This document shows positions 8,481 to 58,740 of a stretch of DNA of 64,000 bases, piece by piece (position 1 is the stretch's first letter; every line of letters begins with the position of its first letter). The notes under the pieces were generated by a model. That model made no database searches. It was not told where the DNA came from and worked only from the letters and a program-made list of their open reading frames with translations. The DNA is from Antedon bifida. Its lineage: Eukaryota; Echinodermata; Crinoidea; Comatulida; Antedonidae. The stretch covers positions 14,260,001-14,324,000 of the forward strand of contig OY727102.1 of assembly GCA_963402885.1 (NCBI GenBank). Reading direction: 5' to 3'. Both the position numbers and the translations under genes were made by a program.

Positions 8481-9690
8481 AAATCAAGGAAGGTTACTAC
8501 ATTATCTTAGATATTAAACCATGTTTAATCAGAAATATGATTTTAGAATTATATCCTATACATTATTTAAATAATTTTCAATCCTGGTCTCTATTCTCTA
8601 GAAATACTATATAACTTTATTAGTCACCATTGATTGATTTATGCTAAAAGAAAAAGTACAGATAACCGCAACATAATATTGATAATTTAAATAAAAGTAT
8701 GTGACTGCAAACAAATTGAAACAATACAAAGACACTACAGTATTTTCTATGTCTAATGATTGAATTGTAAATAACATTCTACTTTTTAAAACACCATGAA
8801 CAATGTAAATAAACCTACCTACTGATAAATATAAAACATGTATTATAATGAATGTTTGTAATGTGTGACTGCAAATAAAATAGCATAGATGATATATTGT
8901 TCATACAATTTTATGATTTTACCGTATGTACACAAATGTGCTTATGTGCTCATTCATCGCGTGTGGTCGGAGATTATTTTTTACGTTGCTAAAGTTGAGT
9001 TGAGCAGACCAACATTAACATCTTTTCCCACTTTCTGATCTGACTCATTCCCATAGGATTGCTTTTATAGCTCTCCATAGGGAAAGCCAATACAAAGCCC
9101 AGCTTAACGTATTTTAACAACTTAATCCTATCTACTGTTGTTGTCTTTCTATTTTTAATGAATAATTTACTATATTAAATATAGTGAAGTTTGTGTCTAC
9201 AAGAATCTTACTGTATTGTTATTTCACAAACTAATTTAACCTATATATTTTGACTCCTGGCATTGAAAAACAAGTGTTCAACAATTAGGCTAACAAGTAT
9301 TGATGAATTTCAAACAAAGGTATTATTAAGGTATGTTGGATTGCAGATTAATGTGAAAAATGTGGGAAAAAAACTTAAATTTTTAAAGTTTATAAATGAA
9401 TAATATGATGTATTATATTGTTTTGTTAATTTTGTCTTGGTTATTACAACTGCTGCTTGCGCTTCGTCTACTCACTAGCGTTGCACCTACGTCGTTGCGT
9501 TGCATCCAAGTGGGAATTATGCTTTACTGAATGTAGATTTTATATTAGGACTTCAATATTCACTGATTGATTCATCATTTTTTTTTTTTTTGAATAAATA
9601 TTACTCCACTTCCAAAGTTTTTGTTTACATTTATATGACAATAATGTATAATAGTTGTAATATTTTTACATTCGAACATAACATGTTATA
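8481..9690. other. AT-rich stretch, no gene seen
   Basis: Nothing beyond AT-rich sequence is recognised. A slightly GC-richer patch at 9455-9520 (gcttgcgcttcgtctactca) has no coding frame of note. A T run at 9578-9590 interrupts the only local frame. Confidence 0.4.
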
Positions 9691-10279
9691 TTAAAGACAC
9701 CTTCCCTACAATTTGTGACGTTTTGTAAAAATAATACATATATAATACTTTAAAAACATTAAACCAGGTCATTCCTTGTCTACGTTTTATTGTAAATTAT
9801 GATAAAAAGTGAGAAACAATGCACTACCTAAGTAGCTCGCGGCGAGAGACCTGTCGTGGACGGTCTTTAGGCCTAGCCTAGCTAGGCTTAGTTTTGTAGG
9901 CCTAGCTGGTAAACGAACATCGTACGCTAGCTATATACCTAGCCTGACGTTGTATAGTTGCTGCATTAATTGTCTTTCTATTTTTGTCAGACTTCGTTGA
10001 TACAAATTAGGGAAAACCCGGTATTTTCGCTGAAAAGTTTGGAGTCTTCCATTTGTTTTGGTCTCACGATCAAAACAAACAAAAATATCAATCCGCGCGC
10101 AATGCATTTTGGGATTTATAGCGGGCCGCTATAATTATTAGAATCGCCTTTTTTAAACATTTTTAACCATTTAAAGACGAAAAAAGTTATCGCAATAGGA
10201 CCATATAGTTTTATTTTTACATTAAATATAGTTTGTGATCTTAAATTAGATCTAAAAAACGTAGGGAAGGTGTCTTTAA
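9691..10279 (+). mobile_element. Family C TTAA element, copy C1
   Basis: The element (9695-10275, 581 bp) is bounded by direct TTAA repeats at 9691-9694 and 10276-10279. Its ends are inverted: left agacaccttccctac, and right the exact complement of agacaccttccctacg. It carries no open frame of note. The core is GC-richer, with CpGs and the palindromic strings taggcctagcctagctagg and gcgggccgct. TTAA duplications are characteristic of piggyBac and Kolobok transposons, so this is probably a non-autonomous member of one of them; which one cannot be told from the ends alone. A close copy lies at 17645. Confidence 0.85.
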
Positions 10280-15960: not shown

Positions 15961-17640
15961 TTTTATATCATTTTTTTAGCTAATACAAGCTAAATATTAT
16001 TTAAGTTTTATGGAATGAATAAAAGTGTATAAACACATTAAGATGAGTGATAGTTTGCATACAAATCAGCTATGAGCACTTTAAATGTGTTTTTGGATCG
16101 CTATTCCAATAAAATCTACAAAGTGCTTCTTATTAATGTGCACATGTGTTACAAAAACATAAAAATATGAGCTAAAGCAAGATTTTGTCATTACGCTGGA
16201 CATGTTGTTACATAAATATAACACTACAAGGTAGTAAAACAATATTTTATTTGGTGCATTCAAATATGTAACACAATCTTTAGTAAATCTGGTTTTCTTT
16301 GTTATTTTCCAAGATAGGTTTATAAAAATAAATCTTGATAAACTGTTAATTTGTTGAGTGGTACAAAATCTGTTATTAGTGTTAGTTATTTCTTAAAATA
16401 AAAAAAATAGGGAAACTTGCATTCCCATTGAATCCACTCATAAAAGAAAAAATGTACTTAAAAAAAGTCAATACAAACGAAATAAAATGTGACCAATAAA
16501 AACGTTTCAGAACCAACATTCGACTTGCTATATTTCATTTGAAATAGTAACATAAATGACTTTTTTAATTTATGGTGATGCATATTCAAATAACTTCTAA
16601 TATCATAGATTTTCTCACACTATAACATAATTCTCTTACCAAATCTCATAAACCCCATGGAAAGTTTCCCCACCTGTTTGTATAGCTTGTGAGCTTTACA
16701 TTTATATACCATGTAATATACTGTAATGCGTGTATGTTAGTTTTAAACTTGCATAAACACAATTAATATCATTTTTCACCTTGTTGTGGTGTTAAACAAT
16801 TGTTTACAGTACTGGGAATAGTCAATCTTATATTTTGTATATATTGATCATACTAAAAATTATGTGAACTTTTGTGAATAAAAATGAAAAAGCTCTTCTT
16901 GCTTATGTACAGTGTTAGAGTGAAATGCATAATGCCTGTTGCACCTTGCAGATTCGGCCAGCATATTCCAAATATGCCAATACTTCATTTAAACGTTAGC
17001 ATACGCAGGGTTTTTTAAACGAATACATGGCATATTGCATAACAACGTTTACATAATAATTATATGAAACTTTGCGAAACCTACAAATGTTTAGTATGTT
17101 GCAAGTATTCATAACTTTTATGGCCACTGATAGATTTACTTACACATCAAATGTGTTCTTGGACGATCATGTTATTTGCGGAAATATACACTGTACAACC
17201 GAGAAAAATACTGGCTACCCAGCTGTAAGACTCACCACCAACTAAACATTTTGCCTATACAGAAGCCTGCGGTTTGAATATAAATTTTAAAACAAAAATA
17301 TGGGTATTAGTTTTTTTTAATTTAATAGGTCAAATCCTAGAATTAAACTTGATAATACAAAGACGTATTATAAGACAATATTAAATATCAATAAACATAA
17401 ATTGGAACATTTGTAATTGAATTTGTAATTGGAAGATGTTATTGTACTTTTAAAAATAATTATAGGTTTATTAATTAAATATAAATAATTTAGAAACTTG
17501 ATGAATAAATATTTAAAGTAAGATTGAATAATTTATTACTTTAACATTGTCTAGTTTATAAAACTTAAAAGAAACAAAAACCAATAGAGATATAAATATT
17601 TAATGTATTCTATTTGACATAATTTAAAAGTTAATTTCAT
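15961..17640. other. AT-rich stretch, no gene seen
   Basis: Mostly simple AT-rich sequence. A patch at 16920-17040 (ccttgcagattcggccagca) is GC-richer but has no partner or coding frame that I can identify. Confidence 0.4.
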
Positions 17641-18275
17641 TTAAAGACCCCTTCCCTGCAATTTTGGACGTTTTTTGGAAAATAATACATATATATCACT
17701 TTAAAAACATTAAACCATGTCATTCCTTGTCTTAAATGTACGTTTTATGGTAAATTATGATAAAAAGTGAGAAACAATGCACTACCTAAGTAGCTCGCGG
17801 CGATCGACCTCTCGTGGACGGTCTTAGGCCTAGCCTAGCTAGGCTTAGTTTTGTAGGCCTAGCTGGTAAACATCGGTAACGTACGAACATCGTACGCTAG
17901 CTATATACCTAGCCTGACGTTGTATAGTTGCTGCATTAATTGTCTAGTCTATTTTTGCCAGACTCCGTTGATACAAATTGGGGAAAACCCGGTATTTTCG
18001 CTGAAAAGTTAGGAGTCTTCCATTTGTTTTGGCCTCACGATCGATCGAAAAGTGGGCGAATTACAGGTGAAAAACAAAAATATCAATCCGCGCGCAATGC
18101 ATTTTGGGATTTATAGCGGGCCGCTATAATTATTAGAATCGACTTATTTTTCACATTTTTAACCGTTTAAAGACGAAAAAAGTTATCGCAATAGGACCAT
18201 ATAGTATTATTTTTACATTAAATATAGTTTGTGATCTTAAATTAGGTCTAAAAAACGTAGGGAAGGGGGCTTTAA
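17641..18275 (+). mobile_element. Family C TTAA element, copy C2
   Basis: This is the second good copy of the element at 9695. Bounded by TTAA at 17641-17644 and 18272-18275, it spans 17645-18271 (627 bp). Its ends are agaccccttccctgca and the complement of agcccccttccctacg. The whole interior aligns with C1, with two extra pieces: about 12 bp duplicating a ggtaac/gtacg word near 17872, and about 30 bp (gatcgaaaagtgggcgaatt) near 18040. High similarity over nearly 600 bp suggests both copies spread fairly recently. Confidence 0.85.
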
Positions 18276-29010: not shown

Positions 29011-29345
29011 CATATGTTAGGGTTAGGATTAGTGTTAGGGTTAGGATTAGTGTTAAAGTTAGGATTAGTGTTAAGGTTATGATTAGTCAAGGTTTGGATT
29101 AATGATAAGGTTTGGATTAGTGTTGGAGTTAGGATTAGTGTTGGAGTTTGGATTATTGCTAAGGTTTGGATTAGTGTTGGAGTTAGGATTAGTGTTAAGG
29201 TTAGGATTAGTGTTGAGGTTAGGATTAGTGTTGGAGTTAGGATTAGTGTTAAGGTTTGGATTAGTGTTGAGGTTAGGATTAGTGTTAAGGTTTGGATTAG
29301 TGTTAGGATTTTGATTAGTGTTAGGATTTGGATTAGTGTTAATGC
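29011..29345. repeat. 18 bp NPN-coding minisatellite
   Basis: Roughly 18 units of an 18 bp repeat, consensus g(t)taggattagtgttgga with variants tttgg for taggg and aagg for gagg. The first units include gttagggttagg, which resembles telomeric TTAGGG but is degenerate. As 18 is a multiple of 3, one minus-strand frame stays open as Asn-Pro-Asn-x-Asn-Thr repeats (29083-29424), and a plus frame as LGLVLRFG. I regard both as consequences of the repeat and not proteins. Confidence 0.85.
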
Positions 29346-54817: not shown

Positions 54818-55692
54818 TTAGAATCCGACATTAAGGGTAATGACTTGTCTGTCATTGCCAAGTTCATCCAACAGCTAAATTCATCAAGTTGAATTATATT
54901 AATAGATGAAAACCTCATTAACTAAATCCAATATGTTCAGTATGGTTAAAGTGACTACGGTAGCTTGTGTATCTTGAGCAAGATAGATGACATTGTAGGA
55001 AAAATTATAGTCCAAGAGCATTAGTTCATAAGTATAGGCAGACCCGGAAATTTCTGGTAACAAGCTAATTTTTTCAGGAAAGGTCGAGAACTATGATTGG
55101 AACATCATACTAAAAGTCCTGAAAAATCCTCCTTGTGCTCTCCGAGAAATCCAAGATGGCGTCCAAAATGGCTGCCATTTTAAATTGGTCTATAACTTTG
55201 TAAACGCTTGTCGTAGAGTATCGATTTTGGTGTCAAATAGTTCACAATATATACATTCCTATTTGCTCTAACAGAAAATTTTGTCAAAAAATGGCCGCTA
55301 CTACAGTTTCTGGCCTTTGACCTTTGACCTGGTCTTATCATATCTCGGTAATGGCTTGTCATAGAGAATTAAGATTAGGCCCAAATTGTTCAGAACATGC
55401 ATATTTTTATTTGGTGTAATGAAATATTTTATCCCAAAATGACCGGAAGTGAGGTTATTGACCTCTTATTGACCTATTCATATCTCTTTACCGTATCTCA
55501 AGAAATATTTGTCGTAGAGCATTACTTTTGGTGTCATATTGTTTGGAACATATACATTTCTATTTAGTCTAATACAACAGTTTGCCCTCAAATGCTCGGG
55601 AGTAAGTTAATTTATTGAAAACTTAAAAAATCAAAGAGCTACATAGGCAGAGGATATGAATACTGTAGAAAAAATCTAAATCAAAGTTTTAA

Positions 55693-55738
55693 CTCTGCCT
55701 TAAAACATGTTTTGGGCATAGCACATCATCAGGTAAAG
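55693..55738 (-). ncRNA. Hammerhead-like relic, left arm
   Basis: This is the inverted-arm counterpart of 57607-57648. On the minus strand it reads CTGATGA, a weak stem II, then AAAA in place of GAAA, and the palindrome ACATGT as stem III. The stem I strands pair only in part. The mutated second core box means it is probably inactive. Confidence 0.3.
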
Positions 55739-55916
55739 TGAATTGTTACAAAAAGAAAATATGAAGTCAATAAATTACAAAGAATAACTGTCAGTGGCTA
55801 ATCAAAGTTGGTTAAGTAAACAAAAGACAATTGGCAAATACATATGTACACAGCACATATCCGACCATTTATATGCAATTTTGAATTGCGTGCAAACGCG
55901 ACTCTATTGCTCACTA

Positions 55917-56335
55917 TGTCGGTCGGTAAACACTAACTCATATTCATATTTTTTTGTTATTTTGACACTGGATATTAATACTTGTAGGCAAATATAAATG
56001 TTTTTAAACATTTTTCAACATTTTTTAACTTTTTCAGCAATTTCGGTCGGTTGGTCAGTCGGTAAACACTAACTCACATTCATATTTTTTCGTTATTTTG
56101 ACACTGGATATTAATACTTGGAGGCAAATATAAATGTTTTTACAATTTTTTTTACATTTTCAGCAATTTCGGTTATTCGGTCAGTTGGTAAACACTAACT
56201 CATATTCATATTTTTTCGTTATTTTGACACTGGATATTATTTAATACTTGGAGGAAATGTTTTTAAAAATGTGAACATTTTTAAACATTTTTAGCAAATT
56301 CGGTCAGTTGGTCGGTCGGTAAATAAACAATAACT
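55917..56335. repeat. Tandem repeat, 126-136 bp units
   Basis: The start word ggtaaacactaactcatatt occurs at 55925, 56061 and 56187, and a fourth, partial one at 56318. Each unit contains cgttattttgacactggata, then ttaatacttggaggcaaa and cagcaatttcggt. It lies in the centre of the foldback element. Confidence 0.85.
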
Positions 56336-56379
56336 CAAATTTACGCACGCGACTGCAGCCATGTATATGGCCTTGTTGA

Positions 56380-56732
56380 CTTTGTAAAAATGCATTTTGA
56401 AACATTCCTTGCTTTAAATGTTCGTTGTATGGCTTATTTATGATAAAAAGAGAATATACCCTAGGTATTTCACGTCAAACGCTCTTTACTCGGCATGCAT
56501 AGACTTTCTTTTCCAGATTCAGATTTTATTTGGTCCTTGCTGAAATCTATAAAAAATAGATTGGAATACCCGGGCAATGATCCCGGTACCTCTCACATGC
56601 TAAGTGAGAGCTCTACCATTTGAGCTAGTCCCCCAGTTACATATTTAACTGTTTAAAGATGAAAAAAGTATCGCCATATGCCCTATATATGATTTATTAA
56701 ATATTGAAAATATGCAAAATAAGGGTCTTTAA
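56380..56732 (+). mobile_element. Diverged family C remnant around the tRNA gene
   Basis: The left part (cattccttgctttaaatgtt, then tatgataaaaagagaat) matches C1/C2 after their first 60 bases. The right part (aactgtttaaagatgaaaaa, agtatcgc, and terminal gggtct then TTAA at 56729-56732) matches their right end. The C1/C2 core is replaced by the tRNA-like gene. The left terminus is missing. Confidence 0.5.
56562..56634 (-). tRNA. tRNA-Ala (AGC), possibly decayed
   Basis: 73 nt on the minus strand fold as a full cloverleaf. Acceptor gggggac pairs with gtattcc (one mismatch, two GU), D stem gctc/gagc, anticodon stem ctcac/gtgag and T stem ccggg/cccgg are all perfect, and the anticodon loop ttAGCat reads AGC (Ala). 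A T6 pol III terminator follows within about 12 nt. The T loop (atcattg) departs from the usual pattern, with T where A58 is expected, so it may be a recently inactivated copy. It sits inside family C and foldback-element sequence, which suggests carriage by a transposon. Confidence 0.65.
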
Positions 56733-56890
56733 ATCACTTCAACATTGATCAGCAGCATTCTGTTACAGTCATTCATCATCTGATGTTGCATCTTCAACAT
56801 CTTGGTGTTTGTTGCTTCTTTCACATCATTATCATCATGTTCATCTGTATGGGTGTTGTTGCATGTTTGCCCAAAAGTTATGACGTTATG

Positions 56891-56990
56891 ACGTTTGAGA
56901 ACATTCAATAGTGCATTCTCTTTTAAAACAAGGAATGACCTGGTTTCATGTTTCAAAATGCATTATTTTTACAAATAAAATGGTCTTTAA
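56891..56990 (-). mobile_element. Family C left-end fragment, inverted
   Basis: On the minus strand from TTAA at 56987-56990: agaccattttatttgtaaaa, ataatgcattttgaaac and aaccaggtcattccttg, matching the left terminus region of C1 (ataatacat ... aaccaggtcattccttg). Together with 56380-56440 it forms an inverted pair. The 75-codon minus frame at 56729-56956 is of no recognised family. Confidence 0.5.
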
Positions 56991-57606
56991 CATTAAGTTT
57001 TTGACAATCCGGAGTATAATATATGCCATGTACATAGTGTTCCCTGCCAATTGAGCATTTCCATGCGAAATGTATATGACCTGAACATTTCATTCTCACA
57101 CTCACAGTATTATAAAGTCTATACATTTCCTAAATTACATAACATTTCTACTTTTCTGAACAAAAAAAATTATCATAATTTCTATAATAAATTATAAAAA
57201 TAACGACGTGATTTTAACAAAAGCACTAATTCGCGTATGTACTGTAATGCGAGTTACAGACGAATAACGCATTTAAAATGTATTCATGACATCTACATAT
57301 AGGTGACATTTTGTAGCAATAACCTTTCAACCATACTAGTATGAGAATTTCAATTAACGTGTCCTATGATATTCTTTGTTCTATCGAAGTTAAATAAATG
57401 ATTATTTTGGTTTTTTCTTGTATAGTTCATACCCTTATTACAGTAAAATTTACCCTCAAGGTTATTGTTGAAAATAACAAAACACTCTTCAACTACCCAA
57501 TAAAATGTTGCGGAATAACCCATTTTTTTTGTTTACTTAACCAACTTTGATTAGCCAATGACAGTTATTCTTTGTAAGTTATTGACTTGATATTTTCTTT
57601 TTGTAA

Positions 57607-57648
57607 CTTTACCTGATGATGTGCTATGCCCAAAACATGTTTTAAGGC
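57607..57648 (+). ncRNA. Hammerhead-like relic, right arm
   Basis: CTGATGA (57613-57619) is followed by a weak stem II (tgtgctatgccc), AAAA in place of GAAA, ACATGT (57635-57640) as a self-complementary stem III, T at the cleavage position, then ttaagg, which can form five pairs with ctttac just upstream of the core after one mismatch. The order of parts is that of a minimal hammerhead; the altered core box argues that it is inactive. Confidence 0.3.
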
Positions 57649-58439
57649 AGAGTTAAAACTTTGATTTAGATTTTTTCTACAGTATTCATATCCTCTGCCT
57701 ATGTAGCTCTTTGATTTTTTAAATTTTCAATAAATTAACTTACTTCCGAGCATTTGAGGGCAAACTGTTGTATTAGACTAAATAGAAATGTATATGTTCC
57801 AAACAATATGACACCAAAAGTAATGCTCTACGACAAATATTTCTTGAGATACGGTAAAGAGATATGAATAGGTCAATAAGAGGTCAATAACCTCACTTCC
57901 GGTCATTTTGGGATAAAATATTTCATTACACCAAATAAAAATATGCATGTTCTGAACAATTTGGGCCTAATCTTAATTCTCTATGACAAGCCATTACCGA
58001 GATATGATAAGACCAGGTCAAAGGTCAAACTGCCAGAAACTGTAGTAGCGGCCATTTTTTGACAAAATTTTCTGTTAGAGCAAATAGGAATGTATATATT
58101 GTGAACTATTTGAAACCAAAATCGATAATCTACGACAAGCGGTTACAAAGTTATAGACCAATTTAAAATGGCAGCCATTTTGGACGCCATCTTGGATTTC
58201 TCGGAGAGCACAAGGAGGATTTTTCAGGACTTTTAGTATGATGTTCCAATCATAGTTCTCGACCTTTCCTGAAAAAATTAGCTTGTTACCAAAAATTTCC
58301 GGGTCAAACCCTAATGCTCTTGGACTATTAAGTGAGATTTTATCCCATTGCAATGTTTTTTAAAATATAAATGTAGGTGATTGTGTATTACTCACTGCAG
58401 TCTTGCTGATGTAAAGTAAATAAGATATGTTATTATAGA

Positions 58440-58740
58440 ATCACTATTAACACTTCTGGGACCCAATAAGGTGTCCGCTGGTCGTAGTGTAAACACATAT
58501 TGCCCCTAGTACATTTCAAGTTTCCCCAGAATAGGAGTGTCCCATGAGTAGGAGCGTCCCCTGAATATAAGTGTCCCCTGAATAGGAGTGTCCACTGAAT
58601 AGGAGTGTCCCCTGAATATAAGTGTCCCCTGAATAGGAGTGTCCACTGAATAGGAGTGTCCCCTGAATAGGAGTGTCCCCTGAATAGGAGTGTCCCCTGA
58701 ATAGAGAGTTGTCGAAAAGGAGGGGTTACTGTTATCATTT
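58440..58740 (-). repeat. Family I copy with a 17 bp minisatellite
   Basis: The flanks match family I in inverted order: gttaatagtg-like, tgggaccc, ggtgtccgc, ttgccc(ct)agtacatttcaa and, at the other end, ggaggggttactgt. Inside, 58533-58708 is an array of about ten 17 bp units (gtgtcccctgaatagga, with gaatataa and ccactgaa variants). The unit is the complement of the family I word cctattcaggggacac, so the array probably grew from the element itself. The 101-codon minus frame follows the 51 bp (3x17) period. Confidence 0.8.

Follow-up and report, generated by a model that had tools for sequence, protein, structure and literature searches.

The locus at the centre of this analysis carries two nearly identical sequences in inverted orientation around a centre with no apparent gene, which raises the question of whether they form one mobile element and, if so, what kind of element it is and what moves it. 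The window examined, meaning the whole stretch of 64,000 nucleotides of Antedon bifida DNA that was analysed, had originally been predicted to hold a foldback element at 55005..58330. These borders proved close to base-exact: identical ends in sibling copies on other contigs place the element itself at 55008..58327 (+ strand, 3,320 bp, J-type tip on the left), with TTA on either side at 55005..55007 and 58328..58330 (no strand assigned). The left arm, with the J tip, lies at 55008..55825 (+) and the right arm, with the G tip, at 57527..58327 (−); both were delimited by an inverted-repeat search of the window, in which arm blocks of 424, 274, and 81 nt were 100, 99, and 96% complementary. Aligned to each other, the arms are 96% identical over ~820 columns, with a 16-base segment adjoining the tip in one arm and a 5-base segment in the other; the inverted arms of ~0.8 kb that had been described are present. 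Three 86-nt units spaced 148-153 bp apart are found in each arm, at 55208..55594 (+; repeat family D3, 69-76% alike) and at 57751..58138 (−; repeat family D4), and the terminal 17 bp, TAGTCCAAGAGCATTAG, occupy 55008..55024 (+) and 58311..58327 (−).

The centre is a patchwork, as anticipated. A repeat search identified a tandem array at 55918..56323 (+; unit 126-136 bp, ~3 copies; period ~136, 3.1 copies when measured). Some other copies of the family have more units of this array. Three pieces that resemble the dispersed repeat family C share 76-86% identity with window 9722-9779, 10157-10230, 17700-17770, and 18153-18225, and lie in both orientations: 56403..56453 (+; 84% to 17721-17770), 56639..56712 (+; 78-81% to 10157-10230 and 18153-18225), and 56922..56975 (inverted, −; 76-86% to 9722-9779 and 17700-17736). 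Between the first two lies a tRNA-Ala(AGC)-derived sequence at 56561..56635 (−). No long reading frame was found in the element; the longest stop-to-stop stretch is 94 codons and extends beyond the right end, in agreement with the predicted lack of coding capacity. Long inverted arms that make up much of the element, internal repeats, and no transposase are the structure of the foldback class, and window 55008-58327 is a real, well-delimited, structurally foldback element.

We searched the genome (315.6 Mb, 27 contigs) for the terminal 17 bp and found 108 exact sites (57 forward, 51 reverse), compared with 0 for the control. Among the 100 of these 108 sites that were listed, 76 form 38 facing pairs on ten contigs, with 35 pairs spanning 3.1-3.9 kb. 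The other 24 ends are unpaired, indicating that truncated or altered copies of the family exist too. Variant ends, TAGTCCAAGAGCAV, were set aside as they had just 2 genome sites. Searching with the arm gave 1,211 candidates, of which the 40 scored all matched at 96-100% over nearly the whole arm; the centre gave 1,626 candidates, of which 40 were scored. The top 20 loci of the arm-match list were fetched as a young set (L009-L028, L009 being the window copy). All 20 have two facing arms and are ~95-100% identical to the window copy; three of them reach 99.6-99.9% across the whole element, from which we infer recent activity of the family. Older copies (L049, L051, and L058) share the same anatomy at ~80-92% identity, depending on the part compared.

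Identical 3-bp flanks were present in 18 of the 20 fetched copies, where ~2.3% per copy would be expected (binomial P ~8e-28), and a terminal base is altered in each of the two copies without them, L020 and L022. The duplications are TTA in three copies, ATA, TAT, and AAA in two each, and TTT, GAA, AAG, ACA, CTA, CTT, CTG, GTA, and AAC in one each, which gives 13 kinds as printed, or 12 once L014 is reversed to match the orientation of the others. Because they vary among copies, TTA is the window copy's own 3-bp duplication and is ruled out as a target motif; the TTA flanks originally noted are where they were said to be, but do not constitute a meaningful border. The 500-bp flanks of the 20 copies are unrelated, save for short repeats between a few, and we therefore took the copies as independent insertions. 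With fixed ends and 3-bp duplications, the family moves as one unit, in keeping with membership of the foldback class. Long inverted repeats are hazardous for assembly, and an assembly or segmental-duplication artefact could in principle mirror a single arm; given facing end pairs on ten contigs, matching duplications, and unrelated flanks, this is extraordinarily improbable. Arms occurring singly with other borders, a lack of duplications, and an assembly artefact are all contradicted, and the single element, with copies that end at the same base, stands.

With no gene of its own, the element was expected either to be mobilised in trans or to be a composite; its centre is indeed composite, and it is probably moved in trans by the protein of a longer, coding copy. 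Three candidates for such a copy were rejected. L029 (7,974 bp) owes its extra 4.8 kb to frames of 438 and 1,007 aa that are LINE-like by eye; L058 proved to be the same non-coding element in an older copy; and in L035 an arm is followed by a RAG1-importin-like frame that is part of a local gene cluster on contig C8 and was not seen with arms. Eighteen of the 24 unpaired ends were also followed inward (four more lie within loci fetched otherwise, and C8:23833979 and C10:15349906 were left out). Arm matches of at least 90 nt were present in 13 of these 18 ends, with none such in L034, L043, L044, L045, and L047. At one of the unpaired ends (L040, C12:17803156 onward), an arm of ~416 bp is followed by a 231-aa frame whose best genomic match besides itself, at 93%, is C1:23493613-23494275, within a 744-aa open frame on the minus strand that contains no stops. 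The shared part of the C12 and C1 genes is 93% identical in protein and 97% in DNA.

The C1 relative spans C1:23492514-23498547 (6.0 kb, its interior known by match coordinates alone) and has family arms at both ends: a left arm at C1:23492514-23492927 (94%) and, on the right, the exact 17-bp end at C1:23498531-23498547 with arm pieces in 23498197-23498547 at 79 and 91%. The arm match stops at query position 428 in both loci; the matching part of the gene directly adjoins the arm in C12 but lies ~670 bp away from the left arm in C1. The left end in C1 starts with GTCC, so that TA is missing from its terminus, and the AGT beside the right end has no counterpart in the left flank; movement of this copy as one unit therefore stays putative. 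For the C12 copy no second end was located, and frames that look reverse-transcriptase-like by eye come next. Two tip types can be told apart, J (TTAGTTCATAAG...) and G (TTAGGGTTTG... or TTAGAGTTTG...). In C1 a J-like tip lies 5' of the gene and a G-like tip 3' of it, and the C12 tip, also 3', is G-like; this orientation by the gene suggests that the foldback inherited its two dissimilar tips from the opposite ends of a coding parent. The earlier question whether a longer copy codes for a transposase is answered in part by this relative, in which family arms at both ends enclose a transposon-type frame, but a DDE core was not seen in it; such a core might lie between C1:23495616 and the right arm.

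The C1 frame was the best genome-wide match of two related proteins, P0037 (60%, E 3.3e-142) and P0148 (58%, E 2.5e-187). Its relatives are animal proteins (from sea spiders, crabs, annelids, a snail, and insects) and many unnamed metagenome records, and no name among the relatives listed, including the best 120 of 146 and the best 120 of 137, says Academ or transposase. Of successive profiles compared with PDB, the first had no match and the second found Exonuclease 1 (E 0.042). With a profile built from 29 relatives, four sequences matched below E 5, all of them Exonuclease 1 (best E 1.1e-4), in an alignment colinear over ~200 residues; the only other match was a 31-residue defensin at E 5.3. 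The aligned motifs vFDG...R, aDtli, tDtDLl, and GCD are known as XPG/FEN motifs. In Pfam, single members gave weak matches, below the curated cut-offs where these were shown: in a set of 34 members, 6 matched 5_3_exonuc_N (best E 0.0007) and 2 matched XPG_I (0.016), and in the set of 29, 7 matched 5_3_exonuc_N, 2 PIN_4 (0.0046), and 1 XPG_I (0.14). One member also matched DUF3316, which is not a nuclease match, at E 0.001, and the 231-aa C12 frame alone had no Pfam match. The C1-type protein thus appears to bear a region that matches Exo1/XPG-like nucleases, at E 1.1e-4 by profile and weakly in single sequences.

PMC10045372 gives AcademX duplications of 3 or 4 bp and AcademH duplications of 9 or 10 bp, and relates this difference to nuclease versus helicase. 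In the present family the duplications, seen in 18 of 20 copies, are all 3 bp, and the arms in C1 and C12 join a nuclease-type transposon gene; the nuclease region together with the 3-bp duplications points to the AcademX lineage. Most probably, the element is a non-autonomous foldback DNA transposon whose ends assign it to the AcademX lineage of Academ and which is moved in trans. The protein of a coding relative would recognise the shared tips, excise the element, and insert it at 3-bp staggered cuts.

A foldback from another superfamily that makes 3-bp duplications (Zator, CACTA/EnSpm, or PIF-Harbinger), with the Academ-type gene brought beside the arms by nested insertion, is a reading that we regard as quite unlikely. 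The damaged left end in C1, where no duplication was seen, and the ~670 bp between arm and gene at that locus are consistent with it, but the junction of family arms with one and the same gene recurs at two loci, in both of which the arm match stops at query position 428, and the tip types follow gene orientation in C1 and C12 as far as seen. PIF-Harbinger duplications are TWA, a preference absent from GAA, AAG, ACA, CTT, CTG, GTA, and others among the duplications found here, and membership of that superfamily was rejected. Duplications of 3 bp nevertheless suit several superfamilies, among them Zator, for which PMC10045372 also gives 3 bp. A Mutator foldback was rejected as well, as its duplications would be 8-10 bp (as given for Tetris in PMC4079207) and those of the present copies are 3 bp.

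Within the AcademX reading, the near-identity of the arms calls for an account of its own. Over the outer 493 bp of the arms in L009-L028, arms of the same side differ by 1.05% between copies, the two arms within a copy by 1.7%, and opposite sides across copies by 2.0%; since 1.05% is less than 1.7%, the arms of one copy have not been homogenised, since the young burst, beyond the same-side arms of others. A comparison of lineages, leaving out the first 60 columns, included 20 left and 20 right young arms, 3 old left arms, and 6 old right arms. Young left and young right arms differ by 1.2%, and young and old arms of the same side by 3.8-4.0%, the old set being small; 200 of 200 block bootstraps agreed that left and right young arms are closer to each other than young arms are to old arms of the same side. 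Two columns are side specific, both near the tip, and six are lineage specific. We read this, with the small old set in mind, as suggesting that the two arms were homogenised after the young and old lineages parted, while a short difference at the tips was kept. The arms may have copied each other by gene conversion or by hairpin-templated repair, and the arm distances fit either route; the short left/right difference next to the tips would be retained from the coding parent. The centre would be a passenger patchwork of tandem array, old family-C fragment, and captured tRNA-Ala gene that was present before the family spread.

A more speculative idea, which we think rather unlikely, is that AcademX transposition itself breeds foldbacks: a flap or hairpin nuclease in the protein would process or repair hairpin intermediates, lengthening and homogenising the arms, while the tips keep the left/right identity of the parent. 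If this were true, the family would document how arms are copied from a hairpin template.

Inverted repeats of great length that contain internal repeats are also found in Galileo and FB of Drosophila and TU of sea urchin, which belong to other superfamilies and have other duplication lengths than the foldback described here. Like AcademX elements of Academ, the present family has 3-bp duplications and a coding relative with a nuclease-type protein; unlike AcademX coding copies, it has no gene, and its arms are ~0.8 kb long, whereas the stretch of arm that matches in the coding copies measures ~0.35-0.42 kb. The C1 relative, at ~6 kb, can be set beside the mean of 5,565 bp for curated bivalve Academ elements given in PMC10294476. 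Tetris of Drosophila virilis, as described in PMC4079207, is similarly non-autonomous, with inverted ends that contain internal tandem repeats and end portions common to another element, but differs in that its duplications are 8-10 bp, it is tentatively assigned to Mutator, and its autonomous source was not found; its abstract and discussion section mention no tRNA, which the present family carries. No combination of Academ and foldback was found in the literature that could be searched. Within that literature, a foldback in what is most likely AcademX is new as a combination, although its general kind is known. Since one genome holds both a coding relative, whose matching arms are shorter, and non-coding foldbacks related to it, the steps between them could be studied in another superfamily, and the concerted evolution of the arms could be dated on the family tree.

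The remaining question concerns the tRNA in the centre, originally described as a nearly intact tRNA-Ala. The sequence at 56561-56635 (minus) scored 39.4 bits against Rfam tRNA, whose gathering cut-off is 29, in a scan of 401 bases under lax filters; a gathering-mode Rfam scan of the 4.4-kb region listed no tRNA match. ARAGORN called tRNA-Ala(AGC) in 18 of the 20 young copies and in L029, and no tRNA in L030, L046, L049, L050, L051, or L058. Host tRNA-Ala genes were represented by 21 different sequences from six loci, most of them other than the nearest from an array at C8:19.00-19.03 Mb; the nearest is an isolated gene, C8:8064953, from which the element's tRNA differs at 4 of 73 bases (26, 30, 58, and 68). 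At base 58, part of box B, 20 of the 21 host variants have A and one has G, whereas the element has T. The tRNA does have the shape described, but its box B is altered and no significant constraint was detected. On sequence comparison, we read the tRNA as a captured host gene that was probably slightly damaged already when the family expanded and is now a passenger; such cargo would be a host gene hitch-hiking and decaying.

tRNA-derived SINEs likewise spread tRNA-related sequence in many dispersed copies, although the tRNA here moves inside a DNA transposon with inverted ends, and it is unlikely that the tRNA part is the head of such a SINE inserted in the ancestor. A tail-like AAATAAAATCTGAATCTG does lie downstream of the tRNA, but of the 25 exact matches to this 18-mer tail in the genome, 24 fall inside element copies by coordinates, leaving one at C8:23007581; a SINE origin is disfavoured because this exact pattern, which diverged tails would escape, is not dispersed. 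We find it very unlikely that the tRNA is functional cargo, through which the family would disperse an active tRNA gene or Pol III promoter. The tRNA is followed by six T in a row, it is callable in most fetched copies, and pooled differences from the window copy in 16 young copies (leaving out L009, the window copy itself, L013, L014, L025, L037, and L039) number 4/1,168 in the tRNA, 49/3,684 in the left flank, and 212/13,896 in the right flank. These pooled counts resemble constraint but count shared changes many times, most flank changes being shared by descent, and we therefore used variable sites instead. The young copies vary at 2 of 73 tRNA sites and 48 of 1,118 others (Fisher P 0.76), and three old copies pooled have 17/213 against 336/3,056 changes (P 0.21); both comparisons have little power, and, with no significant lack of change in either, selection on the tRNA was rejected. 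The altered base 58 and the differences at bases 26, 30, and 68 also argue against a working gene. In L013 and L014 the tRNA is broken by a common deletion, although the two copies occupy different sites and each has its own duplication.

One locus of the foldback family, L043 (C13:9219685, minus strand), is a 154-bp derivative that retains both tips and is bordered by GTA at either side; very little between the tips therefore seems to be needed for movement. Two further loci on the same contig, L044 (C13:10922236) and L045 (C13:10939119), lie 17 kb apart and have their outer flank in common. They also share approximately 450 bp at 94% identity, and their likeness to the foldback family is confined to the outer ~80 bp; they are possibly another subfamily. 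Within the foldback copy L029, an insert (L029:1174-5947) carries two neighboring long open frames of 438 and 1,007 aa, which appear LINE-like by eye.

More remote relatives of the C1 gene, the 744-aa open frame of the 6.0-kb relative of the element, were found at C10:16795218, C10:3283780, and C10:17001883, with identities of 25 to 39% and open frames of 1,458 to 1,552 aa; the protein family is therefore diverse within this genome. A separate frame at L035:825-1169 (C8:21145144) matches the Pfam RAG1 importin-binding domain (E = 1.5e-6) and has 18 relatives at 85 to 88% within a single stretch of C8 (21.56 to 22.21 Mb) and one on contig C22. Together, these form a clustered family of predicted genes resembling the RAG1 N terminus. 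Contig C8 also holds a dense array of tRNA-Ala genes (C8:19002723-19033462) with AGC, TGC, and other anticodons, spaced in steps of ~215 bp; 91 of the 100 tRNA-Ala matches listed in the genome pattern search fall inside it.

Elsewhere in the window, a MITE-like repeat of ~0.6 kb is present in two copies (9642-10279 and 17601-18275) that are 86% identical, with ends resembling AGACNCCTTCCC and TTAA flanks apparent by eye; it fits the dispersed repeat designated family C in the original prediction. A degenerate telomere-like array (29015-29342; unit TGTTAAGGTTAGGATTAG, 18.3 copies) lies in a stretch with a GC skew of 0.19, and a 17-bp tandem array of 11.2 copies (58519-58709) begins ~190 bp beyond the right end of the foldback element.
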